From positions 1 through 41,080 of IMG/VR virus record IMGVR_UViG_3300018405_000007: a DNA stretch of 41,080 nt, one strand, 5' to 3'. Under the pieces are notes generated by a model. It was not told the DNA's origin. It worked only from the letters and a program-made list of their open reading frames with translations, and did not search any database. Positions 1,363 through 41,080 of this stretch are shown piece by piece. This DNA is from a virus. Each line of letters opens with the position of its first letter. Position 1 is the stretch's first letter. A program made the position numbers and the translations under genes.

Positions 1363-1395
1363 AGGCTAAGGGGCTCACAACCAGGTACGCGTACC
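1363..1395 (-). promoter_or_regulatory. Candidate late promoter upstream of terS
   Basis: Reading leftward, the perfect palindrome GGTACGCGTACC (1395-1384) is followed by exactly 15 bases and then TAGCCT (1368-1363). Four other leftward units have the same 12-mer, spacing and hexamer arrangement. The predicted start would be near 1356, before the terS GTG at 1329. Confidence 0.65.
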
Positions 1396-1397
1396 GA

Positions 1398-1628
1398 TCA
1401 GCCGGCCACCGTGCGCCAGCTCACTGCGAACTGACCACGCCGGCGCATCTTCACGATGTCGGCGATGGTCGACTTGCCGACGCCGAACTTGTCGGCGAGC
1501 TTCTTGTAGCTCATGCCCTGCTCGTGAAGCTGACGGATCAGCTCGACCTCGTGATCGGTCAGCCGGGCGTGCTGGTGATCTTCACCGACGCGCAGGCCGC
1601 GCTCATTGACCCCTACCAGTTTCTTCAT
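1398..1628 (-). CDS. Small helix-turn-helix protein, candidate late regulator
   Basis: The 76-residue protein has a clear homeodomain/resolvase-like HTH at residues 24-62 (LTDHEVELIRQL, then YKKLADKFGVGKSTIADIV), of the type in HTH_38 and transposase-like DNA-binding domains. The tail is short and no catalytic domain follows. The start at 1628 is preferred because AAAGG lies about 9 bases upstream; a longer frame to 1655 has no better signal. It lies between the primase-helicase and terS, directly upstream of a late-type promoter. Regulation of late promoters or a packaging role is inferred from position; the family alone says only DNA binding. Confidence 0.75.
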   Translation of the reverse strand: MKKLVGVNERGLRVGEDHQHARLTDHEVELIRQLHEQGMSYKKLADKFGVGKSTIADIVKMRRRGQFAVSWRTVAG

Positions 1629-1823
1629 CCATAGCCGCCTTTCTCCAACGTGCATTTTTTTGCAGTGTTCCCCTGTTCCTCTGTTGACCCGTTTTCGCCT
1701 AACCTTTCCCCAGCCCTCTTTTTAGTCGTTTCTACCCTCCCCCTATAGAGAAGGAAGGGAACAAGGAGAACAAGGGGAAAAGGCCAGCAGCGGCGCGGGT
1801 TTAGCACGTACCCCATGCGTTCC
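1629..1823. other. Intergenic region with a purine/pyrimidine-biased tract
   Basis: This 195-base gap separates the primase-helicase from the small HTH gene and is clearly lower in GC than its surroundings. On the + strand 1744-1784 is almost all purine and contains GAACAAGG twice, with GGGAACAA recurring near 1851 in the adjacent gene. The opposite strand is C/T-rich. No good promoter or terminator could be assigned. A replication or regulatory role is possible but unsupported. Confidence 0.4.
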
Positions 1824-4031
1824 CTATCTCGCCGCATCGGGCCAGTGGAAGGGAACAACAGGCCGATAGCCCCAGATCACGCGCTCGCCATCGCGCACTT
1901 TTTTGCGCTCATAGCCCAGCGCGCGAAGCGCCGAGCCTGCGCGCAATTCTTCGCGCCGTGCGACGTGCTTGGGGTCGAGCCCCAGCGCACCCTTGAGCAC
2001 ATCGCCAACGCGCAAGAATTTGCGGGTTCGAGGCGCGTCGCCAGTCAGCGGGTCGGCTTCGTCGAGCCAGTGGTCGATGGCCTCCTCCCACGAATCGCGG
2101 ATCGTGTGCTCCTCGTGAACGTCGCCGGCGAGGCCCTCGGCGTCCTGGTAGTCGATGCCGATCAGGTCGTACATGGCCCTACCCTCGGCCCAGAGCTGCA
2201 GCCGGTCCCGGCGGATCGCGTCGACGTCGGCCTGGTGGACCCGCACCGGCAACCAGCGCCGGTTCCCGGTGTCGTCGGCCAGGAACTCGTCCTTGTTAGT
2301 CGTGCCCACGAACACGATGCGCCGGGGAAAGTTCACCGCGAACTCGCGGTACTTGGGCACCCAGGACTCGTGCGTCCTGGTGATGAACGCCTTGATCGTT
2401 TCGAGCTCGCGCGTGTGCAGGCCGCGCAGCTCGCCGATCTCGCCGATGAGGCGCCCGCGCATGCGCCTGGCCAGGTCGTCCTCCTTCTCGTGGAAGGACA
2501 CCTCGGTGAAGAAGTCGGTGGCCGGACACATGGCCGCGACGCCGGTGGACTTGCCCACGCCCTGCCCGCCCACCAGGATCGGCACCATGTCGGCCTTGAC
2601 GCCCGGCGTGACGACGCGCCCAGCGAGCGCGGTCCAGAGGTATTTCGACACCGCCCTGGTGTAGGGCGTGTCCTCGGCGCCGAAGTACCGGGCCAGGAAC
2701 TGCTCGACGCGCGGCACGCCGTCCCAGGTCTGCTGATCGAGCCAGGTCTGGGCCGAGTCGAACGGATGGTCGTCGGCCACCAGCAGCACCGAGTCGCGGA
2801 TCAGCTCGCGCCCGACCGGCTTGAACCCGCGACGTTCGAGCTGGATGCGCAGGCGCGAGTAGTCCGAGTCGGTGAACGCGGCCCACTGGTCGTCGGCCTC
2901 GCGCGCCCACATGATCTCGTCGCGGAACTGGTCGTACCTGATCTGCATGCCGCAGAAGTCAGGCCGCAGCAGCGCGAGCTGCAGGTTCTTCATCGTCGCC
3001 TCGATCCGCCCGGACCGATCACGCGAGAAGGCCGGCAGCGGCAGCGGCTCGGACGCCGGCGCCACGACCACCGCGAAGTCCTCGGCCAGGTAGCCGATGG
3101 CGTGCTGGAACTCGGAGTCGCCGCGGCCCGTGCAGTGCGCGTGCAGGCACTTGAAATGCCCCTGCTCGTATCCGTTCGTGCCGGCCGGGAAGTACACCGT
3201 CGAGCCGTCGCCGGCCGTGCCGCCCGAGTGCTCGTGCTCCCAGGGGCAGCGCACGTTCAGCGCGCCGTCGCGGTCCTGGCCCAGCACCAGGCCCTTGTTC
3301 TTCAGGAAGTCGGCCACGTCGTCGGCCATCGCGATGCGCTCGCCCTTCTTGCGCACGCTCACCTGACCCTGCTCGACCGGCTCGGTCGCGAACCGCTCGG
3401 CGAGCGCCGACCAGAGCGCCTCGAACTCGGCCAGGTCGAGCTCGGGGAACTCGGCGGGCAGGCCGCCCAACCACTCGTACCGGGCGCCCGAGGGGTGCGT
3501 GCCGATAGCCACGAACTGCTGGCCGGTGGCCAGAAACTCGACGACGCCGCCCTCGACGGTCATGCGCCGCTTGGGCAGCTCGCCCGGCAGCGCGAAGGCC
3601 AGCAGCACCTTGCCCGAGTTCACGCGCATGCGTGCCGGCAGTTGCTGGCCCAGGTGCGCGGCCACGAACAGGGTGATCTCCTCGGCGAGCTCGGTGTCGG
3701 GAACGTCGATGTCGAGCGCGCGGATCGTGCGGGTCTGCAGGCAGATACCGTAGTCACCCTGGCGCGCCCAGCGCGCGAGGTCCGCGTCGCTCGCTTGGTG
3801 CGCAGTCCAGCCGGCGATGCCGACGACGCGGCCGGCGCCGTTGTAGCGGCTCGGGGTCTTGCCGATGTCCTTGAGCTTGGAGTCGGGGTCGAGTTCGGCC
3901 AGGGGGTTCGACACGACCGGCAGCAGGTCGGCCCCCAGGCCCAGCACCAGGTCGAAGTGAGTCCAGTCGTCGGGACTGGCACCGTATGAGGCAGGAAGGC
4001 TGGCCATGTCTTTGTCTTTCTTCTGGGTCAT
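1824..4031 (-). CDS. Bifunctional primase-polymerase / VirE-type helicase
   Basis: The predicted 735-residue replication protein primes DNA synthesis and unwinds DNA. Residues ~15-220 resemble the bifunctional primase/polymerase fold (LGADLLPVV start, GICLQTRTIRALDIDVPD with the acidic metal-binding segment, then a GGVVEF strand). A zinc-binding segment follows: C262-P-W-E-H-E-H and C295-L-H-A-H-C300. The C-terminal half matches VirE/VapE-type P-loop proteins: Walker A GGQGVGKST at 488-496 and an acidic LIGEIGEL segment near 533, then FVGTTNKDEFLADDTGNRRW. The start at 4031 avoids overlap with the small gene ending at 4046; a second ATG at 4007 is also possible. It is read leftward after the Cro-like gene, so replication is split between both arms. 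Confidence 0.85.
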   Translation of the reverse strand: MTQKKDKDMASLPASYGASPDDWTHFDLVLGLGADLLPVVSNPLAELDPDSKLKDIGKTPSRYNGAGRVVGIAGWTAHQASDADLARWARQGDYGICLQTRTIRALDIDVPDTELAEEITLFVAAHLGQQLPARMRVNSGKVLLAFALPGELPKRRMTVEGGVVEFLATGQQFVAIGTHPSGARYEWLGGLPAEFPELDLAEFEALWSALAERFATEPVEQGQVSVRKKGERIAMADDVADFLKNKGLVLGQDRDGALNVRCPWEHEHSGGTAGDGSTVYFPAGTNGYEQGHFKCLHAHCTGRGDSEFQHAIGYLAEDFAVVVAPASEPLPLPAFSRDRSGRIEATMKNLQLALLRPDFCGMQIRYDQFRDEIMWAREADDQWAAFTDSDYSRLRIQLERRGFKPVGRELIRDSVLLVADDHPFDSAQTWLDQQTWDGVPRVEQFLARYFGAEDTPYTRAVSKYLWTALAGRVVTPGVKADMVPILVGGQGVGKSTGVAAMCPATDFFTEVSFHEKEDDLARRMRGRLIGEIGELRGLHTRELETIKAFITRTHESWVPKYREFAVNFPRRIVFVGTTNKDEFLADDTGNRRWLPVRVHQADVDAIRRDRLQLWAEGRAMYDLIGIDYQDAEGLAGDVHEEHTIRDSWEEAIDHWLDEADPLTGDAPRTRKFLRVGDVLKGALGLDPKHVARREELRAGSALRALGYERKKVRDGERVIWGYRPVVPFHWPDAAR

Positions 4032-4045
4032 GCGGAGCTCGGCCG

Positions 4046-4213
4046 TCAGAACGGCGCGGGCTCGAAGTCGTCGAGCGCGGCGCGCCGCTGCTCGGTGCGC
4101 TTGCGCGCGAGCTGCCGCACCTGCTCGGGCGTCAGCCTGGTGAACGGCCAGCTCGGCCACTGGCCGGCCGCGATCTCCTCGGCGGTCTGCAGCTCGATCT
4201 CGTCGGCCGTCAT
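4046..4213 (-). CDS. Small hypothetical protein between Cro-like gene and primase
   Basis: A 55-residue frame starts with ATG at 4213, overlapping the TGA of the upstream Cro-like gene (ATGA), and ends 14 bases before the primase-helicase start. The protein is acidic at the N-terminus (MTADEIELQTAEEIAAG), then Trp-rich (QWPSWPF), then basic and helical (TPEQVRQLARKRTEQRRAA). Stop-start coupling and tight packing support a real gene. I do not recognise a family; no membrane segment or zinc motif is visible. Confidence 0.65.
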   Translation of the reverse strand: MTADEIELQTAEEIAAGQWPSWPFTRLTPEQVRQLARKRTEQRRAALDDFEPAPF

Positions 4214-4446
4214 TGGGCCGACTCGGGCAGGTCCACGAGGTCGGCCAGGCGCGGCGAGATCAGGCGAGCGCGCGGGATGCCGAACTGCGCCTCGATCTCC
4301 AGGGCTCGGCGCACCGGGACCCAGCCGCGGCGCAGCCAGATCGACACCGCCTGCTGCGATACGCCCAGGCGCTCGGCGAGCGCGACCTGGTTGCCGGCTT
4401 GTTTCAGGGCGTCGGCAATGCCCGAGGGATGGTTGAGCTGGTTCAT
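4210..4446 (-). CDS. Cro/YdaS-like DNA-binding protein
   Basis: The protein is 78 residues long from the ATG at 4446. It carries a compact HTH: IADALKQAGNQVALAERLGV then SQQAVSIWLRRGWVPVRRAL, the pattern of YdaS/Cro proteins in lambdoid-type switches, including the characteristic W-x-R-R-G-x-V-P segment. It is divergent from the repressor at 4583 and is the first gene of the leftward transcript, exactly where Cro is expected. No Shine-Dalgarno is evident before 4446. An in-frame TTG at 4479 would add 11 residues and give an almost leaderless transcript. Role as the lytic-switch antagonist is inferred from family and position. Confidence 0.82.
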   Translation of the reverse strand: MNQLNHPSGIADALKQAGNQVALAERLGVSQQAVSIWLRRGWVPVRRALEIEAQFGIPRARLISPRLADLVDLPESAQ

Positions 4447-4479
4447 GGTGGAGGTGGGCTTTCTTGTAGTGATCGGCAA

Positions 4480-4509
4480 ATTTTACAATCGCCTAGTTGG
4501 ATTGTACAA
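4480..4509 (-). promoter_or_regulatory. Leftward switch promoter (PL/PR-like) for the Cro-like gene
   Basis: Reading leftward, TTGTAC (4509-4504) and TAAAAT (4485-4480) are separated by 18 bases, close to a sigma-70 promoter. The Cro-like gene lies downstream, and the inverted-repeat operator at 4485-4505 lies almost entirely within it, so repression by a switch protein is likely. Confidence 0.55.
4485..4505. promoter_or_regulatory. Operator-like inverted repeat in the switch region
   Basis: ACAATC (4485-4490) and GATTGT (4500-4505) are perfect inverted 6-base arms around 9 bases. An overlapping palindrome TTGTACAA sits at 4502-4509. GATTGT/ACAATC words recur at the second operator (5521-5541), which suggests that one regulator binds both control regions. 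Confidence 0.6.
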
Positions 4510-4523
4510 CAGGTCGATAGTGA

Positions 4524-4554
4524 TTGACGGGCCGCTCGGGGGTCGGGTTACAAT
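4524..4554 (+). promoter_or_regulatory. Probable repressor maintenance promoter (PRM-like)
   Basis: TTGACG (4524-4529) and TACAAT (4549-4554) lie 19 bases apart, upstream of the repressor ATG at 4583. The spacing is longer than optimal, consistent with a weak or activated promoter. A transcript would start near 4561. Confidence 0.45.
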
Positions 4555-4582
4555 GGCCAGATACAACCACTAGGTGGTAGTC

Positions 4583-5422
4583 ATGGCCACGACGTTCGGG
4601 GAAACGCTGCGCATGGATCGCGAGCGTTTGAAGATGTCCCAGGAGCAGCTCGCGAAGCTGCTGGACGTGTCGCAGCAGGCCGTCGCGAATTGGGAAGCGG
4701 GCACCGCCCACCCTCGGCGCGAGCGCCGCGCCCGCCTGCTGCAGATACTCGGACCGCAGTCCGAGCTCGCGAAGAACCCGCCACGCTTCGAGTTCATCGC
4801 AGCCGAGGATCAGCCGGTGAGCCCGCCAAGCTCGACACTACGGGGCCAACGACTTGAAGCGATAGAAATGGCGACGAACCCGGATTTCCGCCGGCAGTCG
4901 GAAGAAGCGGCGAAGCGGTTCGAGGAGAGCCGACGCAAGGTCGAGTCCACGCTGGCCCGCATCAAGATGCAGCAGGACGAGTTCTACGGGCGGCTGCCCG
5001 AGGAGCTGCGCCCCTACTTCGACGGGCGCATCACCGTCGGCGCCCAGACCCGGCAGCTCGACTACCTATCCCCGCGCTGGGGGATCGAGGTCAAGAACGC
5101 GCCCAACAACAGGTTCATGTCCTGGAGCTCGGCCGCGCCCGCCCTGGTCAAGCTCGCCGTCGTGCGCGGCATCGCCGACCAGCACCTGCGCCCGCCGCGC
5201 GAGTACGCGCTGATCTTCGTGAACGACGGCCTATCGCTGCGCGCCGACGGCTCGATGCAGAAGCTCATGTTCGACGCCGGCGTGCTCGGGATCAGCGTCT
5301 ACCAGGTCGAGTCCCACGCGCAGGCCGCCGACCTGGTGCGCCAGCTCGAACTCGAAGGCGAGGATGTCGCCGACGAGACAGACGAGGCCGTCGATTCCGA
5401 CCCCGAGAACCCGGCCGACTGA
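4583..5422 (+). CDS. CI-like repressor with an HTH and a nuclease-like C-terminal domain
   Basis: The protein has 279 residues. An XRE-type HTH lies at residues 5-57 (FGETLRMDRERLKMSQEQLA, LDVSQQAVANWEAG), the hallmark of phage repressors. A charged helical linker (~85-140) follows. The C-terminal part (~140-250) has no S24/LexA Ser-Lys peptidase. Instead it shows RQLDYLSP then WGIEVKN, with D160, E169 and K171 in the spacing of a PD-(D/E)XK core, followed by a helix and strands (EYALIFVND, ISVYQV). The ATG at 4583 follows AGGTGG. It sits divergent from the Cro-like gene between two operator regions, so lysogenic repressor is the likely role. The nuclease resemblance is an inference from motif order. 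Confidence 0.75.
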   Translation: MATTFGETLRMDRERLKMSQEQLAKLLDVSQQAVANWEAGTAHPRRERRARLLQILGPQSELAKNPPRFEFIAAEDQPVSPPSSTLRGQRLEAIEMATNPDFRRQSEEAAKRFEESRRKVESTLARIKMQQDEFYGRLPEELRPYFDGRITVGAQTRQLDYLSPRWGIEVKNAPNNRFMSWSSAAPALVKLAVVRGIADQHLRPPREYALIFVNDGLSLRADGSMQKLMFDAGVLGISVYQVESHAQAADLVRQLELEGEDVADETDEAVDSDPENPAD

Positions 5423-5443
5423 CCCCACCCCCCTCTGAAAACC

Positions 5444-5471
5444 AGCGCCCGCGAGCCGGGCGCTTCTTTTT
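5444..5471 (+). terminator. Rho-independent terminator after the repressor gene
   Basis: AGCGCCCG (5444-5451) pairs perfectly with CGGGCGCT (5457-5464) around a 5-base loop, followed at once by TCTTTTT. It should end the repressor transcript before the early promoter at 5507. Confidence 0.85.
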
Positions 5472-5506
5472 GTCCGAGCCCACAACAAAAAAGTCGTGGC
5501 GACCTG

Positions 5507-5534
5507 TTGCACAACCTCGGGATTGTGGTACGAT
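5507..5534 (+). promoter_or_regulatory. Early rightward promoter
   Basis: TTGCAC (5507-5512) and TACGAT (5529-5534) are separated by 16 bases. The -10 element is enclosed by a perfect operator (5521-5541). The promoter opens the long rightward early operon starting at 5590. Confidence 0.6.
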
Positions 5535-5541
5535 CACAATC
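5521..5541. promoter_or_regulatory. Operator overlapping the early promoter
   Basis: GATTGTG (5521-5527) and CACAATC (5535-5541) are perfect 7-base inverted arms around GTACGAT, which contains the -10 hexamer. Binding here would block RNA polymerase. GTTGCACAAC at 5506-5515 gives a further symmetrical element just upstream. Confidence 0.65.
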
Positions 5542-5542
5542 A

Positions 5543-5560
5543 ACAAGTCGTCGAACTTGT
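5543..5560. promoter_or_regulatory. Second inverted repeat downstream of the early promoter
   Basis: ACAAGT (5543-5548) and ACTTGT (5555-5560) are perfect inverted arms around CGTCGA. It lies immediately downstream of the predicted start point and may be another operator or an RNA hairpin in the leader. Confidence 0.4.
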
Positions 5561-5589
5561 GACCACAACCACCGAAAGGACCTCCTGCT

Positions 5590-5688
5590 ATGACCTCCGA
5601 AACCCTCCTCGATGCGGCCCTCGCGGTCGTGATCGGCCTGGCGCTCACCGCGCTGACCCTCGCCTGGTTCGACGTGCTGGTGCCCTGA
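5590..5688 (+). CDS. Small single-pass membrane protein, first gene of early operon
   Basis: A 32-residue peptide starts at 5590 with AAAGGA about 10 bases upstream and ends by overlapping the next ATG (ATGA at 5688). Residues 9-28 (AALAVVIGLALTALTLAWFD) form one strongly hydrophobic helix. Good ribosome binding site and stop-start coupling support expression. Its function is unknown; tiny early membrane peptides of this kind are common in phage early operons. Confidence 0.6.
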   Translation: MTSETLLDAALAVVIGLALTALTLAWFDVLVP

Positions 5689-6023
5689 TGGACCACACCG
5701 CCCTGTCCCGCCTGACCGACCGCGAGCTCCTGCTGCACGCGGACAACCACCGCGACCCGCTCACCTCGACCGACGTCGAGATCGAGCTGGCCAACCGCTT
5801 CGCGAACCTGGTCGAGCTCACCGAGATCGACGACGCGATCACCGAGCACGGCCTGGAGCGCGGCGACCTGCGCCCCCTGCTGGAGCTCCTGAACGACTTC
5901 AACGCGACCGACCTGAAGGCCCTGCGCCAGAAGCTCGAACGCGCCGACAAGTTCTACGACATCGCCAACGACGCCGGCGACGTGATCGCCCGGCTCAACA
6001 CCCTCGTCACCGAAACCCTCTGA
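5688..6023 (+). CDS. Early hypothetical protein
   Basis: The 111-residue acidic protein begins MDHTALSRLTDRELLLHADN and is predicted to be mostly helical (ELANRFANLVELTEIDDAIT, LRQKLERADKFYDIANDAGD). It is coupled to the preceding membrane peptide by an ATGA overlap. A 10-base gap holding GAAAGG separates it from the next gene. No catalytic or metal-binding motif is visible. I do not recognise a family; the operon position suggests an early host-takeover or replication accessory role. Confidence 0.75.
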   Translation: MDHTALSRLTDRELLLHADNHRDPLTSTDVEIELANRFANLVELTEIDDAITEHGLERGDLRPLLELLNDFNATDLKALRQKLERADKFYDIANDAGDVIARLNTLVTETL

Positions 6024-6033
6024 AAGGAAAACC

Positions 6034-6465
6034 ATGTTCCCCATCACCGTCACCGTCCACGACGCCGCCCAGCTCAACGCCATCATGGCCGCCCTGGGCA
6101 CCACCGGCCTGCAGCCCGCAGCCACCGCGCCCGTCGCCACCCCGGCGCCCAAGGCCGAGCGCGTCGCCAAGCCCAAGGCCGAGCCCAAGCCCGAGGCCGC
6201 CGAGGGAAACGCTGCTGCGGCCAGTTCCGAACCGGCGACCACCGCTGCACCCGCTGCCTCCTCGACCGCCTCCGAGCAGCCGGCCGCTGACGCCCCGGCC
6301 ATCACCATCGCCGACGTGAACGCCGCGATCATCGGCCTGGCCAAGGCCAAGGGCCGCGACGCCGCGGTCGCCGTGCTCAAGGAGTTCGGCGTCGCCAAGG
6401 CCCCCGAGCTCAAGCCCGAGCAGTACCCCGCCGTCGTCGCCGCCGCGAAGAAAGCGATGGCCTGA
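6034..6465 (+). CDS. Early protein with Ala/Pro linker and conserved C-terminal helical domain
   Basis: The protein has 143 residues. The N-terminal ~28 residues (MFPITVTVHDAAQLNAIMAA) form a short strand-helix. A low-complexity Ala/Pro/Lys/Glu linker covers ~30-90. The C-terminal ~50 residues (ITIADVNAAIIGLAKAKGRD, AVAVLKEFGVAKAPELKPEQ) form a compact helical domain of a type I have seen in phage early proteins of unknown role. The start has GAAAGG about 7 bases upstream. It is followed after 1 base by the next gene. The linker suggests a tethering or adaptor protein, which is an inference only. Confidence 0.78.
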   Translation: MFPITVTVHDAAQLNAIMAALGTTGLQPAATAPVATPAPKAERVAKPKAEPKPEAAEGNAAAASSEPATTAAPAASSTASEQPAADAPAITIADVNAAIIGLAKAKGRDAAVAVLKEFGVAKAPELKPEQYPAVVAAAKKAMA

Positions 6466-6466
6466 C

Positions 6467-6667
6467 ATGAACGGCAAGAAAGCCAAGGCCATGCGCCGCC
6501 TGGCCGAGCACATCACCTCGCGCAAGGGCCTGCCGGCCCGGCACGCGCACCAGGTCGACCTGGGCCTGGGCAACGTGCGCGTCGTCAACGCCGCGGACAC
6601 CACCCGCGGCCAGTACCGCGCGCTGAAGGCCGTCGTGCGCGCCGCCTACCGGAGGGCTGCAGCATGA
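6467..6667 (+). CDS. Small basic hypothetical protein
   Basis: The 66-residue basic protein ([20 protein letters not shown], ending [18 protein letters not shown]) overlaps the downstream nuclease gene by 4 bases (ATGA). Its charge suggests nucleic-acid contact. No named family is recognised. Tight coupling to the RecB-like nuclease points to the DNA replication or recombination module. Confidence 0.7.
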
Positions 6668-7884
6668 CCGCGCACGCCCGCCTCTCACCCTCTGGCGCCC
6701 ACCGCTGGATGCGCTGCGCCGGCAGCATCTACCTGGAGTCGCAGCACCCCGACCGCTCCAGCAAGTTCGCCGACGAGGGCACCGCCGCGCACGAGCTCGC
6801 CGCCTGGGCGCTCGAATCCGGCAGCGACGCCGCCGCCTACATCGGCCGGATCATCGACGTCGACGGCAACGAGTTCGTCGTCGACGAGGACATGGCCGCC
6901 AACGTCCAGGTCTACCTCGACAACGTGCGCGAGTACGCCATCGACGGGCAGCTCCTGGTCGAGCAGCGCGTCGAGTTCTCCGAGTACGTCGACGTCGAGG
7001 AATCGTTCGGCACGTCCGACGCGGTGATCCTCAAGGGCGCCGAGCTCCACGTCCACGACCTGAAGTACGGCAAGGGCGTGAAGGTCGACGCCGAGCACAA
7101 CGAGCAGCTCATGCTCTACGCGCTCGGCGCGATCAACGAGTTCGGCATGCTCGGCGACTTCGAGCGCGTCGTGATGGTGATCCACCAGCCGCGCCTGGGC
7201 CACGTCAGCGAGTGGAGCTGCACGGTCGAGGAGCTGCAGGACTTCGCGTTCCGCGCCCGCGCCGCTGCCGCGAAGGTCATCGAGATCGTCGACACCCAGA
7301 TCGTCGGCGTCGAGGACCTGGCGCCCGGCGAGAAGCAGTGCCGGTTCTGCAAGGCGAAAGCCACCTGCCCGGCGCTCGCGCGCCAGGTCGAGCAGACCGT
7401 CGGCGCCGACTTCGAGGACCTCGAAGTCACCAAGACCCGCGTCACCCTGTTCAAGGAGGACGCGCAGTTCATCAAGCCGACCGTGATCGCCGACTACCTG
7501 GCCGCGGTCGACCTGATCGAGTCCTGGTGCAAGGCCGTGCGCGCCGAGGCCGAGCGCCGCCTGCTCGACGGCGACGAGGTGCCCGGCTTCAAGCTGGTCG
7601 AGGGCCGCCGCGGCGCCCGCAAGTGGACCAACGAGGCCGACGTCGAGGCCGCGCTGAAGTCGATGCGCCTCAAGCACGACCAGATGTACGACTACAGCCT
7701 GATCTCGCCGACCGCGGCCGAGAAGCTCGCCAAGGCCGACGTGCTCGGCGAGCGCCAGTGGGCCCGCCTGCAGTCGCTCATCACCCAGGCCAAGGGCTCG
7801 CCCAGCGTCGCCCCGGCATCCGACAAACGTCCCGCCCTGCAGATCACGCCGGTCGAGGACGACTTCGCAGACATCGCGGGGTGA
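6664..7884 (+). CDS. DUF2800-type RecB/Cas4-like nuclease with probable Fe-S cluster
   Basis: The protein has 406 residues. It begins with [15 protein letters not shown], typical of DUF2800 and AddB/Cas4-like exonucleases. The PD-(D/E)XK core is visible: [15 protein letters not shown]119 (FGTSDAVIL), the D132-L-K134 signature (VHDLKYGKG) and a QxxxY helix (EQLMLYALG). C18 together with C226, C229 and C234 ([10 protein letters not shown]) matches the four-cysteine iron-sulphur arrangement of this nuclease group. It probably processes DNA ends in recombination or replication, next to the ssDNA-binding protein gene. Exonuclease polarity cannot be told from sequence. Confidence 0.85.
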
Positions 7885-7888
7885 CGCC

Positions 7889-8050: not shown

Positions 8051-8051
8051 A

Positions 8052-9039: not shown

Positions 9040-9048
9040 GGGTCGAGC

Positions 9049-10854: not shown

Positions 10855-10867
10855 CAAGGAGAACCCA

Positions 10868-33405: not shown

Positions 33406-33415
33406 GTCGTCCCCT

Positions 33416-34057: not shown

Positions 34058-34074
34058 CGCGCACCCCTTCAATC

Positions 34075-34113: not shown

Positions 34114-34149
34114 GAATGGCCTTCCTGCTAAGAAAGACGGATCGGACCC

Positions 34150-34353: not shown

Positions 34354-34365
34354 GCCGATCTCCTA

Positions 34366-34794: not shown

Positions 34795-34833
34795 TTCGGG
34801 GTTCCTTTCAGAAGTTCGGTTCGCATGCGAGCA

Positions 34834-34849
34834 AGGGGCCGAAGCCCCT
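34834..34849 (-). other. TTCG-loop hairpin between capsid and cement genes
   Basis: Leftward AGGGGC-TTCG-GCCCCT is a perfect stem with a highly stable UUCG loop. It lacks a U-run, so it probably stabilises the 3' end of capsid mRNA or only partly terminates. Confidence 0.6.
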
Positions 34850-34859
34850 CGCGTCAGCC

Positions 34860-35864
34860 TCAGACCACGCGGGCCTCGGTGTTGAGCAGGGCATCGACCT
34901 TGCGCAGGGGCACGCCCTCGAAGGACAGCCAGTTGGCGGCGGTGCCGAACTGGTTCAGACCCTTCTCGACAGCCAGCACGTTCTGGCTCTTGTTCAGGGC
35001 CTGGATGCGCAGCATCGAGTACACGGTGCGGTTCATGTAGAACACCGGCTTGCCGAAGTTCAGGTTCGGAATCTTGTCGAGCGCGCGGCTCATCAGCTTG
35101 ATGAGGTCGGCGGCGCTGGACTCGCCCACCAGGTTCGACACGTCGATGTTCGCGATGCGAACCACGTAGCGCCAGTCCTTCACGACCAGGCCGTTCTTCC
35201 ACTGGTACTGAGTGGCCAGGGCCTGCAGGCGGGTGCCGTCGGCGTTGTAGACGGTCTGCTCGCCCAGGTCGTTGTGGATCAGGCCGGCCTTGGAACCCTT
35301 GGGGAACGTGCCGAACACGGTGTTGTCACCCCAGACCACCAGGTAGATCGAGGTGTTGTCGCTGCCAGTGCCACCGGCGTCGATGATGTTGGCGGCGTTG
35401 CCGGCACCGGAGATCGTGCCGTAGCGAGTGGCCAGGCCCAGGTACTGCTTGGGGTCGGTGGCCGGGTTGCCGTAGAACATCGTGGACGCCTGGGTCTGGT
35501 TCATGGCCTCCAGGAACGCCTGATCTTCGGACAGGCGGAACTGCGCCGTGTTGCCGTTGAGCTCGGCCAGGTCCTTGTCCACTTCGCTGCGGGCTTCGAG
35601 GATGCCGCAGGACTCGTCGACCTGAGCGGTCGTCGACTTGGAGTTCGGGATGCCCTGGTTTAGAGCGCGCCAGTAGACCTGCGGCAGGCCGGTGCGGATC
35701 ACGACACGGTGGCCGGTGGGCAGGTTGCCCTCGACGAACAGTGCGTCCTCCAGGATTTCGTTGGTCTGCGAGAGCAGCTCGGCCACGACGGGCACGCGGC
35801 CCTCGGGATCGGTGCGCTTGGCCCAATCGGCCAGGGTGAGCGCGGTGTTTGCGAGAGTTGCCAT
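34860..35864 (-). CDS. Major capsid protein
   Basis: The 334-residue protein resembles BPP-1-type (HK97-fold) capsid proteins: MATLANTALTLADWAKRTDP, VVAELLSQTNEILEDALFVE, GNLPTGHRVVIRTGLPQVYW. It continues AFLEAMNQTQASTMFYGNPA and ends KVDALLNTEARVV. AAGGAG lies upstream. There is no N-terminal delta domain; a separate scaffold gene precedes it. Its codon choice is strongly biased to C/G-ending codons, as expected for a highly expressed gene. Confidence 0.92.
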   Translation of the reverse strand: MATLANTALTLADWAKRTDPEGRVPVVAELLSQTNEILEDALFVEGNLPTGHRVVIRTGLPQVYWRALNQGIPNSKSTTAQVDESCGILEARSEVDKDLAELNGNTAQFRLSEDQAFLEAMNQTQASTMFYGNPATDPKQYLGLATRYGTISGAGNAANIIDAGGTGSDNTSIYLVVWGDNTVFGTFPKGSKAGLIHNDLGEQTVYNADGTRLQALATQYQWKNGLVVKDWRYVVRIANIDVSNLVGESSAADLIKLMSRALDKIPNLNFGKPVFYMNRTVYSMLRIQALNKSQNVLAVEKGLNQFGTAANWLSFEGVPLRKVDALLNTEARVV

Positions 35865-35877
35865 TTAAGAGCTCCTT

Positions 35878-36567
35878 TTAGCGTTGCTGATTCGGGTAGA
35901 GGGCGTTGGCTGCATCCTTCGCCCCCTTTGGACTGCCGCCCGTTGCCGGTACGAACTTGTCCTCACTGATTGCCTTGCCCGCCCTGAAAAACGCCCGAAT
36001 GAGCTCGGGGTGATTTCCCAGACCGGACTCGTTCAGCAGCGCGCGCAGCTCGGGCGATCCGAACGTGTCGAGGGCCTTCTTCGCGACCGCCAGGTTCTCG
36101 GCGAGCTTCTCGCCCCCGAACTCCTTGTCGGTCTGCGCGGCCTCGACCCATTGGGCTTTCGCCTGGGTCAGGACCTCGGCATGACGGCCGGCGATCACCG
36201 GGCCCATCTTGTCGAGCACCTTCTGCGCAGCGTCCTGGGTCAGGTTCAGGTCCTTGGCGACTTCGGAGAACGCGCCGAGCCCCTTGTCATCCAGTTGGAT
36301 GCCGTCGGGCAGCTTGAACTCGTACTTCTCGGGCGCGCCCTGGGGGGCGTCGGCCTGAGTGCCTTGGGTCTGGTCGCCCGGTTTCGGCTCGGTGCCGGTC
36401 GTTGCGGTCTGACCTGGTGCGGCTTGCTGCTGGGTCTGCGCGCTCGCTGCGGCTGCGGCGTCCCCTGCAGCCTGAGCTGCGGGCGCTGCGGTCGCGGTCT
36501 GCGCGCCTTGCGATGCGTTGCCTTCAGTGGTCGTTGCGGCGTCCGTCATCAGCGATTCGGTTGTCAT
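35878..36567 (-). CDS. Scaffolding / head morphogenesis protein
   Basis: The 229-residue protein has a low-complexity Ala/Gln/Thr N-terminal half (~1-75) and a helical C-terminal half: EYKFKLPDG-like KYEFKLPDGIQLDDKGLGAF, SEVAKDLNLTQDAAQKVLDK, then GNHPELIRAFFRAGKAI and a basic end NALYPNQQR. This is the usual design of podoviral scaffolds. It overlaps the Bbp19-like gene by 44 bases, and a second ATG at 36549 is possible. It lies just before the capsid gene. Confidence 0.85.
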   Translation of the reverse strand: MTTESLMTDAATTTEGNASQGAQTATAAPAAQAAGDAAAAASAQTQQQAAPGQTATTGTEPKPGDQTQGTQADAPQGAPEKYEFKLPDGIQLDDKGLGAFSEVAKDLNLTQDAAQKVLDKMGPVIAGRHAEVLTQAKAQWVEAAQTDKEFGGEKLAENLAVAKKALDTFGSPELRALLNESGLGNHPELIRAFFRAGKAISEDKFVPATGGSPKGAKDAANALYPNQQR

Positions 36568-36871
36568 GTATCTGCTCTTTCATCATCACCGGGTACAGCT
36601 CAGGGCATAGCGAGTGAATCTGCGCCAGGATGCGAAGGCCCTCGTTTCTGTTCCCCTCCGCGAAAGCCATGTGCATCGCGTTGGTGTTGAACGAGAGCCG
36701 AAACACGCCGGCTCGATCCAGAAGGCGCCACACGATGCGACGCCCCCGCTTGCTGCCCATGAGCCACTTGAAATCGTCGGCCTCGGTTGCCTGGGTGATC
36801 CGCTCGCGATGCTTGGCATCCTCGGCGGCTCGCTCCTGACCCCGGAGGTCGAGGGGATCGAATGAACTCAT
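36524..36871 (-). CDS. Bbp19-like head protein
   Basis: The 115-residue protein contains DDFKWLMGSKRGRRIVWRLL, DRAGVFRLSFNTNAMHMAFA and EGLRILAQIHSLCPELY, the signature of Bbp19-family proteins of BPP-1-like phages. The family's exact role is not known to me; position between the staple-like and scaffold genes points to head assembly. A phage-type promoter's -10 ends only 6 bases before the ATG and no Shine-Dalgarno is present, so the transcript may be leaderless. Confidence 0.85.
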   Translation of the reverse strand: MSSFDPLDLRGQERAAEDAKHRERITQATEADDFKWLMGSKRGRRIVWRLLDRAGVFRLSFNTNAMHMAFAEGNRNEGLRILAQIHSLCPELYPVMMKEQIHDNRIADDGRRNDH

Positions 36872-36877
36872 GGCGCG

Positions 36878-36910
36878 AATCTATTGCCCGGTGAATCAGG
36901 TACGCGCACC
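36878..36910 (-). promoter_or_regulatory. Candidate late promoter upstream of the Bbp19-like gene
   Basis: Leftward, GGTGCGCGTACC (36910-36899), exactly 15 bases, then TAGATT (36883-36878). The start point would fall at or next to the A of the ATG at 36871. It would boost scaffold and capsid expression. Confidence 0.65.
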
Positions 36911-36912
36911 AC

Positions 36913-37233
36913 TTAGGCGTTGTTGCCGTAGAGCGCGCTGGCCGCGGCGATCGTGCCCGACGCCTGGCCGATCTCCAGGTCGGTGATTTGCAGCTCGACG
37001 CGCATGTCGGCGCCCTCGCCTTGTGTCTCGTATGAGCTCACCGACTTCACGGTCGCGCGGGCCATCACGTTCATCGCGGCGCCGACCGTCGGCAGGCTCG
37101 TGATGCCGAGCTTCTCCAGCTCGTCCTTGCCCAGGCTGATGCACAACCCGTAGGGGTAGCGGGGCTCGTCGGCCTCTATCTCGCCGGGGGTTTCCTCGCG
37201 CTCGGGGGCGCGCTTCATGTTGACCATTGCCAT
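36913..37233 (-). CDS. Capsid staple-like protein
   Basis: The 106-residue protein contains RYPYGLCISLGKDELEKLGI, SLPTVGAAMNVMARATVKSV and MRVELQITDLEIG, the pattern I associate with proteins annotated as capsid staple in this phage type. The fold should be a small beta barrel. AAAGGA lies 7 bases before the ATG. It sits between portal and Bbp19-like genes, consistent with a head accessory role. The name is from memory of the family, so moderate certainty. Confidence 0.7.
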   Translation of the reverse strand: MAMVNMKRAPEREETPGEIEADEPRYPYGLCISLGKDELEKLGITSLPTVGAAMNVMARATVKSVSSYETQGEGADMRVELQITDLEIGQASGTIAAASALYGNNA

Positions 37234-37244
37234 GTCGTTGTCCT

Positions 37245-38915
37245 TTACTGGTAGCCGCTGAACATGCTCATCGCGTTAGTGAGCCCCTCGGGTCCGCCAC
37301 CGCCGGCGGCGGCTGCATCCTTCGCGGTCGCCGCGGCCTGGGCGACCTGCGCCTGCTGCTGGGCAGCGGCTGCGGCCTGGGCGCGTGCGTTGCGGATCAT
37401 CGCGACCTGCTCGTTCGGCACGATCAGCTCGGGGTCGATGCCGAGCATGTCCGAGTAGGCGTCGGCCCACTTGTCCGAGTCGAACTTGTCGAGCACGTCG
37501 GGCTTGATGGCCGCGACCGCGCCCAGGTTGCCGACGAATCGGTCGACGCCGTTGGTGGCCACCGCGCGCTGGGCCTGGGCCAGCATCGACACGTACTGCA
37601 CGTTCAGGTCGACGCCCTGGAGCTCCTCGGGCGGGGGCGGCACCAGGCCGGCCTCGATCATCCGGGCGAAGGTGCGCTCGATCAGCGGGTCCAGCAGCTC
37701 GTTGTGCAAGCGTTCGAGCACCGGGCCCAGCATCAGCAGCTTCTCCTCGTGGCGCTCGGCGACCTCGGTGGCCGTCATGTTGTTGCGCGGGGCGCTGGCC
37801 AGCATCAGGAACAGGTCGGTGTAGAACGTCTGGTTGATCCGACCGCGCACGTCCTGGATGTCGGCGAGCAGATGGTTTAGGTCCAGGCGGACCTCGAACA
37901 TGGTCTTGACCCCGGCCGACGGGCCGGCCATGTCGACGTAGGTCGTGCCGCCGGGCAGCGTGTCGATCATGTGGTTTTTCATCGAGCTCGGCGCCTGCAG
38001 CGGGGGCTTGGTCATGTAGTCGATGCCCTGGGCCTTGCGCAGTTGCTCGTGCTGCAGTTGCTTGATGTCGCCCAGCGCCTCCATGCCGGGGCTCGATCCA
38101 TAGATGTCGCCGCCGATCACGGACCAGCGCGGCACCAGGGCCGGGAACTGCTTGAAGCCGGACTCGCGCAGGAACTTGGTCGAGTCCTGGCCGACCTCGA
38201 AGTAGCAGGACATGAAGGGCATGTTCTTCGCGTCGCGCAGGCGCGTGTCGCGGTCGATGCGCGGCTCGATGGCGTGAATGATCGGCACCCAGGTGTCGAG
38301 GCTCCCGCGGTCGTGCAGGTTCTTGACCGTCGGGCTCACGTTCTCGATGCCGAACTCGCCGACCAGCTCGGCTACGGTTTTCTCGAACTCGCGGTACAGC
38401 GTCACGATCTCGCCGCGGTAGTTCTGCGCGATGGCGTACTCGCCGGTCGTGAGCACATGGTGGCGGATCACGTCGTCGAAGTCGTCCATCACGACGGACG
38501 CGCCGGTGCCGAACGCGCCGATCTCCTCGTACATGGAGTGCAGCGCGCGGTAGGTGTTGGATCGCTGGAAGATGTCGAGCATCCCGCGCTGCACCTGGGA
38601 GAGCCAGAGCTTGACCGGCGCGTAGTCCATCAGGTCAGGGTCAGCCGTGGCCAGGCGGAACCAGGGACGTGCGGGGCTCGTGGCCCCGCCCATCAGCCCA
38701 GCCCCCAGCACGCGCAGGGCGCGGGTGCCGGTGGAGTCGTAGATGTTGTTGTGGCGGCGCTCGCCCTTGTTGCGGTCGGTCACGAAGAACCGGCCCGAAC
38801 GCGGCAGCAGGTAGTCGCTGATTTCCTTCCAGTGCGACCAGTAGGTCGACCGTTCGGTCTTGAGGCTCCCCCATCGGGAGTAGAGCCGGTCGCGCGGTGT
38901 CTTGATGAGGGCCAT
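37245..38915 (-). CDS. Portal protein (T7-like)
   Basis: The 556-residue portal of podoviral type has YSRWGSLKTERSTYWSHWKE, ISDYLLPRSGRFFVTDRNKG, RRHNNIYDSTGTRALRVLGA and GLMGGATSPARPWFRLA, all conserved near the start. FYTDLFLMLASAPRNNMTAT then EVAERHEEKL is the conserved C-terminal core. A Gln/Ala-rich tail ends the protein. The dodecameric portal is the packaging vertex for terminase and the site for the adaptor. Confidence 0.93.
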   Translation of the reverse strand: MALIKTPRDRLYSRWGSLKTERSTYWSHWKEISDYLLPRSGRFFVTDRNKGERRHNNIYDSTGTRALRVLGAGLMGGATSPARPWFRLATADPDLMDYAPVKLWLSQVQRGMLDIFQRSNTYRALHSMYEEIGAFGTGASVVMDDFDDVIRHHVLTTGEYAIAQNYRGEIVTLYREFEKTVAELVGEFGIENVSPTVKNLHDRGSLDTWVPIIHAIEPRIDRDTRLRDAKNMPFMSCYFEVGQDSTKFLRESGFKQFPALVPRWSVIGGDIYGSSPGMEALGDIKQLQHEQLRKAQGIDYMTKPPLQAPSSMKNHMIDTLPGGTTYVDMAGPSAGVKTMFEVRLDLNHLLADIQDVRGRINQTFYTDLFLMLASAPRNNMTATEVAERHEEKLLMLGPVLERLHNELLDPLIERTFARMIEAGLVPPPPEELQGVDLNVQYVSMLAQAQRAVATNGVDRFVGNLGAVAAIKPDVLDKFDSDKWADAYSDMLGIDPELIVPNEQVAMIRNARAQAAAAAQQQAQVAQAAATAKDAAAAGGGGPEGLTNAMSMFSGYQ

Positions 38916-38918
38916 GCG

Positions 38919-39515
38919 TTAGCCCCCCAGCAGAGTCGTGCGGCCGAGCGGCAGCGATGCGGCCGACACGCCCTGCATGCCGGTGAGCAGCGTGCTCGCC
39001 TGGCCGGTCATGCCCTGGCGCTCGTTCTTGGCAATGAACTCCTCGGTGGCCGGCTTCTTCTGGTTCGCCCGGTTGCGGGCCTCCTCGGCGAGCTGGGCTT
39101 GAGCTGCAGCCTGCTCGCGCTGCTGCGCGACCTGCTGCTCGTACTGAGTGCGGGTCTGCTCGGACTGCTGCGCGAACTGTTGCTGCTGCTGGGTGAGCAG
39201 CGTGTCGAACTGAGTCTGCTGGGCCAGGGCGGACTGCGCGGCGCGCTCGCGCTCGGTCTGCAGCGCAGTCTCGAACTGAGTCTGCTGCTGGGTGAGCAGC
39301 GACTGATTGCTCTGCGCCATCAGCTCCATCTGCTTGCGCGATTCTTCGAGCTGGGCCCGGAGCGCCGCGGTCTGGTCCTCGATGGCGCGCGCCTCGCGGT
39401 CGGCGGCACTCTGCGCTGCAGCGGCGGCCGCGTTGTTGGCGTCCTTGGCGTCGTCCATCTTGTCGGCGACGTAGGCCGTCCCTGCGACGGCGGCGACGGT
39501 TGCGGTGATGGCCAT
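38919..39515 (-). CDS. Gln-rich coiled-coil virion protein
   Basis: The 198-residue protein begins with a short Ala-rich hydrophobic segment (AITATVAAVAGTAYVADKMD) and then a long Gln/Ala/Glu coiled coil (~30-160; QTQFETALQTERERAAQSAL, QFDTLLTQQQQQFAQQ). The C-terminus is Gly/Leu-rich (GMTGQASTLLTGMQGV). AAGGAG lies before the ATG at 39515. It lies between the 2OG-GNAT gene and the portal gene. Composition resembles ejection or connector-associated proteins, but I cannot name the family. Confidence 0.72.
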   Translation of the reverse strand: MAITATVAAVAGTAYVADKMDDAKDANNAAAAAAQSAADREARAIEDQTAALRAQLEESRKQMELMAQSNQSLLTQQQTQFETALQTERERAAQSALAQQTQFDTLLTQQQQQFAQQSEQTRTQYEQQVAQQREQAAAQAQLAEEARNRANQKKPATEEFIAKNERQGMTGQASTLLTGMQGVSAASLPLGRTTLLGG

Positions 39516-39517
39516 CG

Positions 39518-40558
39518 TCAAATCTCCTTGCTGAAAATGATGTCCTGCACGCCGTAGCCCATGCGCGGCATGATCTTGGCGAGCGCGGTGTTTTCCTTGG
39601 CGTGCCAGAGCATCAGCCTGGCGCCGCGCTCCTTGGCCATGCGCTCGGTTTCCCGGATCAGGCGCAGCCCGACGGTCGACGGGCGCAGGTCCTCGCGCAG
39701 GAACAGCACGTCGTTGTTGGCGACCACCAGGTCGGCGTAGTGAATGTGCGGCCCGATGAAGTTGACCGAGTAGCCAACGATCTCGCCGTCGGGGTCCAGG
39801 GCCCAGAGGCACAGCAGGCCGTTGTTCTCGTCGAGGAACGCGTAGCGGTCCCGGTCGGGCTTGAGCACCATGACCTGCTTGTTCTTCGCTACCTCGTCCC
39901 AATGCGCGACGAGCAGCTCGTGCATGTCGTCGATCCGGTCGCCCAGGGGCGCCTCGACGATGCGCACGCCGGCGGCAGGGTTCCTGGCCACCGAGCTCAG
40001 GGGGCGGACCTCGAAGCCCGGCACCTGGGCGTCGAAAATGACGTGGATGCGGGGCGCGGCCGAGTCGTTGCGGACCGAGTGCTCGCCCCGATGGTTGAAC
40101 CACCAGAGCTCACCCGGCTGCATGTGGACAGTCTCGCCGTCGCAGGTGAACGAGTTGCCGGTGGCCGAGCTCAGTACCAGGTGGAACCGGCTGAAGGTCT
40201 TGGCGTACTGACCCTGGTCCTCGTGGGCGTCGATCACGCCGCCGGACTTGAGCTTGACGATCATCACGCGGCCCAGGACCGTCGAGCCCAGGATGCGCAG
40301 CACTGGCGCCAGCAGCGGGTAGGCCACCTCGGCGAGCTCGTGCATCGAGAGGTAGTCGACCGAGCGCAGGTCGTTGAACACCGACTCCAGCGTGATCTCG
40401 CGGGGACCGCGCAGCCAGATCGCCTCGGTGTCGTGATGCGGCGAACCGGGCGCCTCCTGACGGACCGTGATCTCGCCCCAAAGTTCGGGACGAGCGGCAA
40501 GAGCGTCGAGCATGGGCCCGACGTCCAGGTCCGTCAGTAGGCGTTGAAAGTTGTGCAT
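39518..40558 (-). CDS. Fusion of 2-oxoglutarate/Fe(II) oxygenase (Asp/Asn beta-hydroxylase-like) and GNAT acetyltransferase
   Basis: The protein has 346 residues. Residues ~55-180 match the aspartyl/asparaginyl beta-hydroxylase fold: H112-E-D114 iron ligands (VIDAHEDQGQY), SRFHLVL, distal H160 (RGEHSVRN) and R170 (PRIHVIFD) for 2-oxoglutarate. Residues ~198-346 form a GNAT domain (LWALDPDGEIVGYSVNFIGP, FLREDLRPSTVGLRLIRETE, ERGARLMLWHAKENTALAKI, GYG). Both sets of key residues are present. Targets are unknown; it may modify virion or host proteins. The start at 40558 lies 13 bases after the terL stop without a clear Shine-Dalgarno; a GTG at 40624 would add 22 residues but lies at the promoter element. 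Confidence 0.85.
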   Translation of the reverse strand: MHNFQRLLTDLDVGPMLDALAARPELWGEITVRQEAPGSPHHDTEAIWLRGPREITLESVFNDLRSVDYLSMHELAEVAYPLLAPVLRILGSTVLGRVMIVKLKSGGVIDAHEDQGQYAKTFSRFHLVLSSATGNSFTCDGETVHMQPGELWWFNHRGEHSVRNDSAAPRIHVIFDAQVPGFEVRPLSSVARNPAAGVRIVEAPLGDRIDDMHELLVAHWDEVAKNKQVMVLKPDRDRYAFLDENNGLLCLWALDPDGEIVGYSVNFIGPHIHYADLVVANNDVLFLREDLRPSTVGLRLIRETERMAKERGARLMLWHAKENTALAKIMPRMGYGVQDIIFSKEI

Positions 40559-40571
40559 CGAGCGGCGCGGG

Positions 40572-41080
40572 TCATCGCAGTAATTCGAGCGGATCGTATT
40601 CACCGCGGTTTGCAGTACGCGCACCGAACTGCTGCATCAGGCTGCGCTTGGCCACCGGATGCGCGAAGGTCAGCGCCAGGGCGTCGGCCAGGTCGGGCGA
40701 GCCGGCGTCGGGGAGGCGCTTCTTGATGTCGTCCTTGCTTTCGAGCTGGATGCGGTTCGCCGCGTCGTACTTGTAGGTCGGCGTCGCGAGCTCCAGCTTC
40801 AGGCTGGTGTCGTTCGGGATCGCGCCGCCGGCCTTGATCCACTCGGCCAGGTCGAACCACATTTCGGCGCGCTTGTTGACGTAGCGCGGGTCGTTCGGCT
40901 TGCCCCCGAAGTTCACCTCGGTGACGTCGTAGCCGAGCTGGCGCAGCCGGTCGATCACGCCGGCGCCGGCGCCCGAGTCGATGAACGTCGCGTCGGGCTC
41001 CCACTGGTCGATCTTGCGGGCGACGTGCCCGGCCAGCGTCATGTTGTCGACGCCGCGGAACACCAGCGGGTCCATCGCGA
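40572..41080 (-). CDS. terL: Terminase large subunit, C-terminal part (joins 1-937)
   Basis: This frame ends at 40572 and encodes the last 128 residues unique to this end plus the copy of the repeated 123 bases. It carries the rest of the RNase H-like nuclease domain: DVTEVNFGGKPNDPRYVNKR, RAEMWFDLAEWI, and the third acidic site in GSPDLADALALTFA. These finish the TerL metal-binding triad. The stop is followed after 13 bases by the 2OG-GNAT gene, and a phage-type promoter lies inside this end of terL. Confidence 0.95.
   Translation of the reverse strand, partial: AMDPLVFRGVDNMTLAGHVARKIDQWEPDATFIDSGAGAGVIDRLRQLGYDVTEVNFGGKPNDPRYVNKRAEMWFDLAEWIKAGGAIPNDTSLKLELATPTYKYDAANRIQLESKDDIKKRLPDAGSPDLADALALTFAHPVAKRSLMQQFGARTANRGEYDPLELLR
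40593..40625 (-). promoter_or_regulatory. Candidate late promoter inside the 3' end of terL
   Basis: Leftward, GGTGCGCGTACT (40625-40614), exactly 15 bases, then TACGAT (40598-40593). It would serve the 2OG-GNAT gene (ATG 40558) and the portal module. The element lies within coding sequence, so its conservation is constrained by two functions. Confidence 0.6.
40958..41080. repeat. Terminal direct repeat, right copy (identical to 1-123)
   Basis: Exact copy of bases 1-123, offset 40957. See the left copy for interpretation: most likely a circular molecule with overlapping contig ends. Confidence 0.95.

Follow-up and report, generated by a model that had tools for sequence, protein, structure and literature searches.

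In bacteriophage T4, middle promoters join a sigma-70 -10 element to a MotA box that replaces the -35 element, and MotA is monomeric, as set out in the part of PMC2988021 available to us. Here we describe a family of sites of similar design in an IMG/VR virus record of 41,080 bases (IMGVR_UViG_3300018405_000007; the whole record is hereafter the window) and in phages related to Bordetella phage BPP-1. Five leftward sites in the window consist of a 12-base box (the 12-mer), a 15-base spacer (N15) and a hexamer close to TANNNT. We propose, with a probability of roughly 0.8, that the host sigma-70 RNA polymerase uses these sites as late promoters with the help of a phage activator. The proposed activator is the small helix-turn-helix (HTH) protein Bbp27, whose homologue is encoded at 1398-1655 on the minus strand of the window. 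Sequence comparison directly shows the sites, their spacing and conservation, their joint occurrence with Bbp27 and the covariation of two Bbp27 residues with two bases of the 12-mer; binding, activation, a role for sigma-70, early expression of bbp27 and leaderless mRNAs are deductions from it.

The original prediction, made from the letters of the window, had listed five leftward sites with a constant spacer, and all five are present at those coordinates, the spacer from 12-mer to hexamer being exactly 15 bases long in each. It also placed each site ahead of a leftward open reading frame (ORF), which agrees with the distances that we found. On the minus strand, GGTACGCGTACC-N15-TAGCCT (1363-1395) stands 33 bases before the GTG start of the terminase small subunit gene (terS), GGTGCGCGTACC-N15-GATCAT (20888-20920) 27 bases before the ATG of the tail fibre gene, and GGTGCGCGTAGT-N15-TATCTT (31309-31341) 24 bases before the ATG of a gp14-like gene at the Bbp12 position. 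The site before bbp19 (36878-36910) repeats GGTGCGCGTACC, followed by N15 and TAGATT, with only 6 bases to the ATG, and GGTGCGCGTACT-N15-TACGAT (40593-40625), within the 3' end of the terminase large subunit gene (terL), lies 34 bases before the ATG of a 2OG-GNAT gene at the Bbp24 position. The claimed hexamer TANNNT thus stands in four of the five sites and fails at 20893-20888, where the hexamer is GATCAT. As also claimed, the 12-mer at 1384-1395 is a perfect palindrome, and it is the sole perfect one among the five. The pattern GGTRCGCGTASY has six matches on both strands of the window, all at the five sites, the palindrome being counted on each strand, and equally good matches within genes, which would have spoken against a promoter family, were found on neither strand. 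In 100 dinucleotide-preserving shuffles of the window the 12-mer had a mean of 0.05 matches and a maximum of 1, and no shuffle had 6; the 12-mer followed by N15 and (T/G)ANNNT occurs 5 times in the window compared with 0 in 300 first-order simulations.

Relatives were collected by a portal search, which gave 2 loci in genome contigs and the best 80 of 88 in viral contigs, and by four further scans, which gave at least 208 loci (L158-L365), some repeating earlier contigs; two of these scans covered the best 80 of 585 and the best 80 of 352. Gene names in relatives follow from order and size, except where a homology match is stated. Far from being lost in related phages, the layout is clearly conserved: a 12-mer, N15 and TANNNT lie upstream of bbp19 homologues in many relatives, with 12-mers that differ by lineage. 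No such arrangement was seen upstream of the bbp19 homologue in L053 and L081-L083, among others. When each record was scanned with its own 12-mer, sites appeared at the terS, bbp24, bbp19, bbp12 and bbp9 positions, not all five in every record. A site directly after bbp27 and ahead of a terS-sized ORF also occurs in G001, G002, G023, L009, G008, G009, G010, G011 and L076, and one is called in BPP-1 (with AAAACT instead of TANNNT) and in Caulobacter phage Jess A (TAAAAA); in G001, G002 and L009 (sites 26569, 4576 and 755) the 12-mer of this first late promoter lies within the 3' end of bbp27. The distance from site to long ORF at the tail-fibre position is 27 bases in BPP-1, DC33, zth2-2, ctQRb9, ctEw122, G001, G005, G006, G008, G009 and G026, and 26-29 bases in G002, G012, G020 and G024, the identity of most of these genes resting on size and order. 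BPP-1 itself has four sites with the 12-mer GGTGCCCGTGCC. Its cassette of mtd, avd, template repeat and reverse transcriptase (L001, 1756-6185) lies downstream of the late site at 6185 in the same direction, and may be transcribed from it.

The fixed spacing was examined in 80 sites chosen by the 12-mer only (allowing no more than one mismatch to the seed of the record concerned), with the bbp19 seed sites excluded and the hexamer ignored. An exact TANNNT stands at N15 in 49 of the 80, and each of the 20 other offsets examined, from -8 to +12, has it in 0-3. This is the arrangement of an activator-dependent phage promoter, that is, a -10-like element at a fixed distance from a phage-specific box. 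Among the remaining sites, 18 match two of the three fixed hexamer letters and 13 match fewer; the poorest 13 comprise the opposite strands of two palindromes (window 1384 and G023 16010), five sites in a BPP-1 repeat (33240-33552) and six single matches. Over all 80 sites, T1 is kept in 55, A2 in 66 and T6 in 69. The test contains some choice, in that the G012 and G014 seeds were picked by eye with N15 in mind and L015, L019 and L021 are among hand-set seeds. We prefer it to an earlier count (76 at N15, 2-10 at other lengths), which includes bbp19 seeds chosen for TANNNT at N15. Together, the shuffles, the simulations and the N15-specific excess of the hexamer rule out a chance origin of the site family.

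Further marks were read from 114 distinct sites, the set that served for column letters and start-codon distances. Eight calls had been dropped ahead of these counts and of the covariation, seven as chance look-alikes (window 27007, G002 31702, DC33 34026, ctEw122 16316, G009 33432, L049 8974 and G012 13469) and Jess A 75 as a repeat of another site. Near each end of the Jess A record (L150), at 75 and 43011, there is a copy of this site together with a gene for the terminase large subunit, as with a terminal repeat. The hexamer letters of the 114-site profile are shaped by site selection, and it is the 80-site set that displays the hexamer free of it. No TTGACA-like hexamer 16-18 bases before the -10 is seen in the column letters of the 114 sites, and no extended -10 letters appear, the spacer columns holding 0 to 0.34 bits. 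A sigma-70 promoter scan of 1-39999 made a single call, within 1-20000, and was silent over 20000-39999; it called none of the four late sites that lie in these stretches.

Distances from hexamer to start codon fall into two classes of 57 sites, one at 5-9 bases (28 of them at exactly 6) and one with all other distances. Shine-Dalgarno-like strings precede the start codon in 2/57 of the first class compared with 36/57 of the second. In the second class the purine share after the hexamer is 0.74 at base 7 and 0.67 at base 8, and falls to 0.37 and 0.40 at bases 6 and 10. If transcription starts 7 bases past the -10, many ATGs of the 5-9-base class would have their A as +1, and we infer that several late mRNAs at such sites are leaderless. 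The bbp19 mRNA from the window site at 36878-36910, with its 6 bases to the ATG, is probably among them.

A candidate reader of the 12-mers lies beside the first site. The window Bbp27 homologue has 85 codons from its first ATG, although the true start is likelier to be Met10, at 1628, and only two bases separate its stop codon from the palindromic 12-mer. It is 60.5% identical to BPP-1 Bbp27 over 76 residues and scores over cut-off for Pfam HTH_38 and HTH_7, with Pfam matches confined to the HTH stretch (residues 27-72); short homologues stop directly after the HTH. The original prediction had argued that an activator, not sigma-70 recognition of a -35 element, acts at the -35 position. Its bipartite late-promoter family is borne out by the layout in relatives and by the spacing, and it missed that the probable activator, this Bbp27 homologue, is encoded in the window.

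Presence of Bbp27 and presence of the sites go together. Among the 49 BPP-1 proteins, Bbp27 alone is present in 17/17 site-bearing and 0/5 siteless genomes, siteless meaning without the site family: epsilon15, Carin1, PfDIW6 and Vibrio 1.021 gave groups of 2-3 look-alikes (at most 3 mismatches), which we read as chance. All 13 records with portal identity above 56%, among the 60 of 179 phage-collection matches listed, have Bbp27, and it was not found in epsilon15, Vibrio 1.021, Cobetia Carin1 or Pseudomonas UFJF_PfDIW6. Over 75 loci with enough flank, a late-strand site was called in 52/57 with Bbp27 (38 of these with two or more) and in 0/18 without it; opposite-strand calls in the same loci were 3/57 and 2/18. 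A second ORF with a Bbp27-like domain occurs in G003 on the minus strand (E 5e-12). BPP-1 Bbp27 (L001, 26337-26573) bears the RefSeq label endonuclease, and in PHROGs it has weak matches only, the best (E 0.00026) being to an endonuclease family over the HTH-like stretch. Limnohabitans phage DC33 (L149) has a taxonomy line of Inoviridae, yet its portal and Bbp27 are of the BPP-1-like podophage type; TANNNT is kept at each of its three main sites. In UFJF_PfDIW6 (L157), which lacks Bbp27, a Q-like antitermination gene is annotated at 39318-39680 and might provide alternative late control.

Evidence that Bbp27 reads the sites also comes from covariation between the protein and the 12-mer. In 35 dereplicated pairs of Bbp27 and lineage 12-mer, protein columns with at most one-quarter gaps were compared with the 12 bases, G004 and G017 being read one base over; the scan was run after the Arg71/G6 pattern had been spotted by eye. 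The top-ranking combination was residue 71 with base 6 (z 15.6), and the next was residue 65 with base 4 (z 10.3). All 35 pairs follow the rule that Arg71 accompanies G6 (14 Arg with G, 21 non-Arg without), and at the level of individual sites G6 is found in 44/44 from Arg71 records and 0/58 elsewhere. Gln, Lys or Tyr at residue 65 goes with A4 in 35/35, a grouping chosen after looking. In 54 further pairs, for which bases 4 and 6 were masked when the 12-mer was called, the Arg71/G6 rule agrees in 48 (Arg: 14 G, 2 A; non-Arg: 4 G, 34 other), or in 47/53 without L281, which belongs to the training contigs and whose domain was mis-extracted; certain rows are closely related to one another. For residue 65 and base 4, the rule agrees in 49 of the 54 (Q65 with A in 6/6, A65 with G in 19/23, one K65 with G, one S65 with A).

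A clade of four relatives makes the same point by exchange. In terL, G010 pairs with L076 (92%) and L075 with G011 (94%), the other pairs being at 66-68%, and portal (91 and 91 vs 87-89) and bbp19 (85 and 81 vs 73-78) lean toward the same pairing; the genes at the terS and bbp24 positions show neither pairing clearly. In Bbp27 the partners are G010 with L075 (79%) and G011 with L076 (81%), with other pairs at 61-75%, and at every called site the 12-mers track Bbp27: GGTGTACGT in G010 and L075, GGTGCGCGT in G011 and L076. Because protein and promoter letters change together across relatives, Bbp27 is probably the reader of the late promoters.

How it would read them differs from what had been proposed. 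A dimeric activator acting on the palindrome is not borne out: dyad matches average 2.68 of 6 over 28 distinct lineage 12-mers (G004 and G017 excluded) vs 1.64 for random column pairings, and random pairings reach the observed score in 261 of 5000 trials. Bases 4 and 6, which track Bbp27, vary while their dyad mates are nearly fixed, base 7 being C in 28/28 and base 9 T in 27/28, so that Bbp27 probably reads the 12-mer asymmetrically and as a monomer. A symmetric dimer should alter both halves, and is disfavoured both by the weak dyad and by bases 4 and 6 changing without their mates.

Several observations weigh against the proposal. The hexamer is not kept everywhere: Jess A retains the 12-mer but its hexamers fit badly (TAAAAA, GATACA, TAAATA, GATCAT), and TANNNT is found in only one of four G013 sites and three of four in BPP-1. 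The purine share rises again, to 0.65, at base 12 after the hexamer. In the co-occurrence test, 5 loci with Bbp27 had no called site, the site profile itself derives from phages of the BPP-1-like group, and the siteless loci are mostly portal-distant, so that kinship confounds the comparison, L283/G007 (63%) being a close exception. The 54 further pairs contain 6 rule breakers for Arg71/G6 and 5 for residue 65/base 4. The rows are also related: the portal tree needs 6 changes for each label (Arg71 and G6), several of its branches are long, and its well-supported branches yield just 4 independent Arg71/G6 pairs, 4/4 in the same direction (sign test p=0.125). In a Mantel test over 23 genomes that controlled for six other genes, whole-Bbp27 distance was not significantly related to motif distance (r=0.14, p=0.10); the value for bbp14 was higher (r=0.22, p=0.02). 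Given portal alone, the Bbp27 distance had r=0.38 (p=0.0002; 33 rows, including the mis-extracted G020). As a set, the whole-protein distance tests are not decisive. Finally, the fold model of Bbp27 is modest (mean pLDDT 62; helices 34-45, 50-57 and 61-68). Its near folds include sigma region 4 and the DNA-binding domains of IstA, Tc3, GcrA and Hin, with Z of at most 7 throughout, a likeness that shows no function, and Foldseek with this model gave no PDB match at E of 0.001 or below.

With these points in the balance, we favor a model in which TANNNT would be a -10 element read by host sigma-70 polymerase. The 12-mer would then cover about -39 to -28, a position that follows from taking TANNNT as the -10, and stand in for the -35 element. 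Bbp27 would sit on the 12-mer asymmetrically, probably as a monomer, and hold polymerase at the promoter, through a contact that the constant 15-base spacing suggests to be rigid. In the leftward block, bbp27 stands behind the primase gene, directly ahead of the first late promoter, and would be made early; once made, the protein would turn on the packaging, head, internal-virion and tail genes. Going further, Bbp27 might be a minimal monomeric stand-in for sigma region 4 that steers polymerase without a second phage factor, residue 65 setting base 4 and residue 71 base 6, with protein and late promoters rewritten together several times to give mutually distinct promoters and leaderless mRNAs. 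This extension is tentative and may well be wrong; in it, Bbp27 would be a free HTH, of about 60 residues in its shortest relatives, sitting in the -35 place.

Other roles for the protein and its sites can be set against the same evidence. Bbp27 is a small HTH protein, operators commonly overlap the -35 region, and a repressor on the 12-mers could keep the late promoters closed until needed. Promoters with neither a sigma-70 -35 hexamer nor extended -10 letters should, however, be weak unaided, and the sigma-70 scan was silent at the four late sites it covered; we consider repression unlikely. An alternative sigma factor, encoded by the phage or by its host, that recognized the 12-mer as a -35 element would account for two boxes at a fixed, sigma-like spacing, and Bbp27 does score weakly as sigma-70 region 4 (Pfam 18.1 bits, cut-off 24.1; NCBIfam 18.2, cut-off 42.9). 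Yet this sub-threshold match is all that the 85-residue protein offers of the two regions, 2 and 4, of a sigma-70 factor, and Bbp27 is too short for region 2 in addition. A host sigma factor would leave the covariation of the 12-mer with Bbp27 residues unexplained, and the view of the original prediction that the window has no recognizable RNA polymerase or sigma gene agrees with our Pfam scan, in which no such model passed its cut-off in 28 ORFs, a subset of the window ORFs that includes some antisense frames. We regard an alternative sigma factor as quite improbable.

A role for Bbp27 and its sites in packaging or genome handling, not transcription, would suit the position of bbp27 next to terS and the site within the terL 3' end. 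The window sites, however, lie 6 to 34 bases ahead of five separate ORFs and carry a -10-like box at fixed spacing, and purines are enriched at the expected transcript start, which makes such a role very improbable. Hardly credible, to our minds, is a motif that works at the RNA level, such as one affecting how the following gene is translated: the sites are indeed near start codons, but 57 of 114 hexamers end 5-9 bases before one, which, with the hexamer taken as a -10, would leave the 12-mer untranscribed, and the covariation partner is an HTH protein.

The window phage itself is, by its gene content, a BPP-1-like podophage (Rauchvirus and kin): 24 of its ORFs match BPP-1 proteins, the late genes are in the same order, and the portal is 66% identical. 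Megablast alignments to BPP-1, at 75-77% identity, spanned 3% of one query half and 7% of the other, which, judged by Megablast coverage against a genus-level identity threshold, would make the phage kin of BPP-1 outside the same genus. Across the joined record ends the terL frame stays open for 593 codons, and the genome is therefore probably near-complete and circularly permuted. All the genes at issue lie on the minus strand. The terS ORF, the first gene after the first site (934-1329), is named by synteny with BPP-1 bbp26 only and has no Pfam match. The tail fibre (18551-20860) shares 49% identity with Bbp9 across its 146 N-terminal residues, and the gp14-like internal virion protein, a Bbp12 homologue (30682-31284), matches Pfam T7_gp14 at 24.8 bits, below the 27-bit cut-off. 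The Bbp19-like protein (36524-36871) matches Pfam Phage_Bbp19, and a 2OG/Asp-Arg hydroxylase fused to a GNAT acetyltransferase (39518-40558) matches Asp_Arg_Hydrox and Acetyltransf_1. Just upstream of the bbp27 homologue, a leftward gene (1824-4160) encodes a Prim-Pol/VapE-like primase, 28% identical to Bbp29 over 225 residues. Elsewhere, a Pfam HdeA/HdeB family match at 16233-16586 (E 8.4e-06) seems unusual in a phage, and a Bbp10-like protein of 2511 residues (21458-28993) has a PBECR5 nuclease-like domain and an LPD22 domain.

Our analysis thus names a probable late activator for BPP-1-like phages. It offers a case, drawn from sequences alone, in which a regulator and the promoters dispersed over its genome change in concert, and it singles out two residue-base pairs in this change. 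Provided that the start sites hold, leaderless mRNAs would serve to translate several conserved phage late genes, foremost among them bbp19. Our literature searches, which do not extend to subscription journals, turned up no earlier account of BPP-1-like late promoters or of Bbp27 as an activator, and the word 'promoter' is absent from the part of PMC11053796 available to us.

Comparison with known systems places Bbp27 among proteins that share its fold or its supposed role. GcrA of Caulobacter is a sigma-70 co-activator. Its DNA-binding domain has a similar fold (5yiu Z 6.5, 7ye1 Z 6.2), but Bbp27 scores 16.1 bits for Pfam GcrA, short of the 26.9 cut-off, and short Bbp27 homologues end after the HTH. 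The DNA-binding domain of Hin recombinase is also close (1ijw: 38% identity, root-mean-square deviation 0.8 over 37 columns, Foldseek E 0.44, rank 20, Z 6.3), but no catalytic domain appears in the Pfam matches of Bbp27, which therefore does not qualify as a serine recombinase. The P1 late promoters and Lpa are alike in needing a phage-encoded activator for late genes, a likeness in the role of the activator (PMC8198154, in the part available). At Mu Pm, a phage activator site likewise takes the place of the -35 and sigma-70 polymerase transcribes, but Mor is a dimer on two inverted repeats centered at -43.5, whereas the box described here would have its center at about -33.5 and is probably read asymmetrically (from the accessible part of PMC4390567). 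T4 MotA, which works with AsiA, comes near in having a host -10, a phage box at the -35 place, a fixed distance and a monomeric activator, and differs in that the MotA box is unlike the 12-mer and lies 12 +/- 1 bases from the -10, centered at -30, where the spacer here is 15 (PMC2988021, same part). No MotA model is among the Bbp27 family matches listed (25 of 52 in one listing). Without claiming Bbp27 as a member of the MotA or Mor families, we conclude that the bipartite layout of these putative late promoters resembles that of known activator-box phage promoters.

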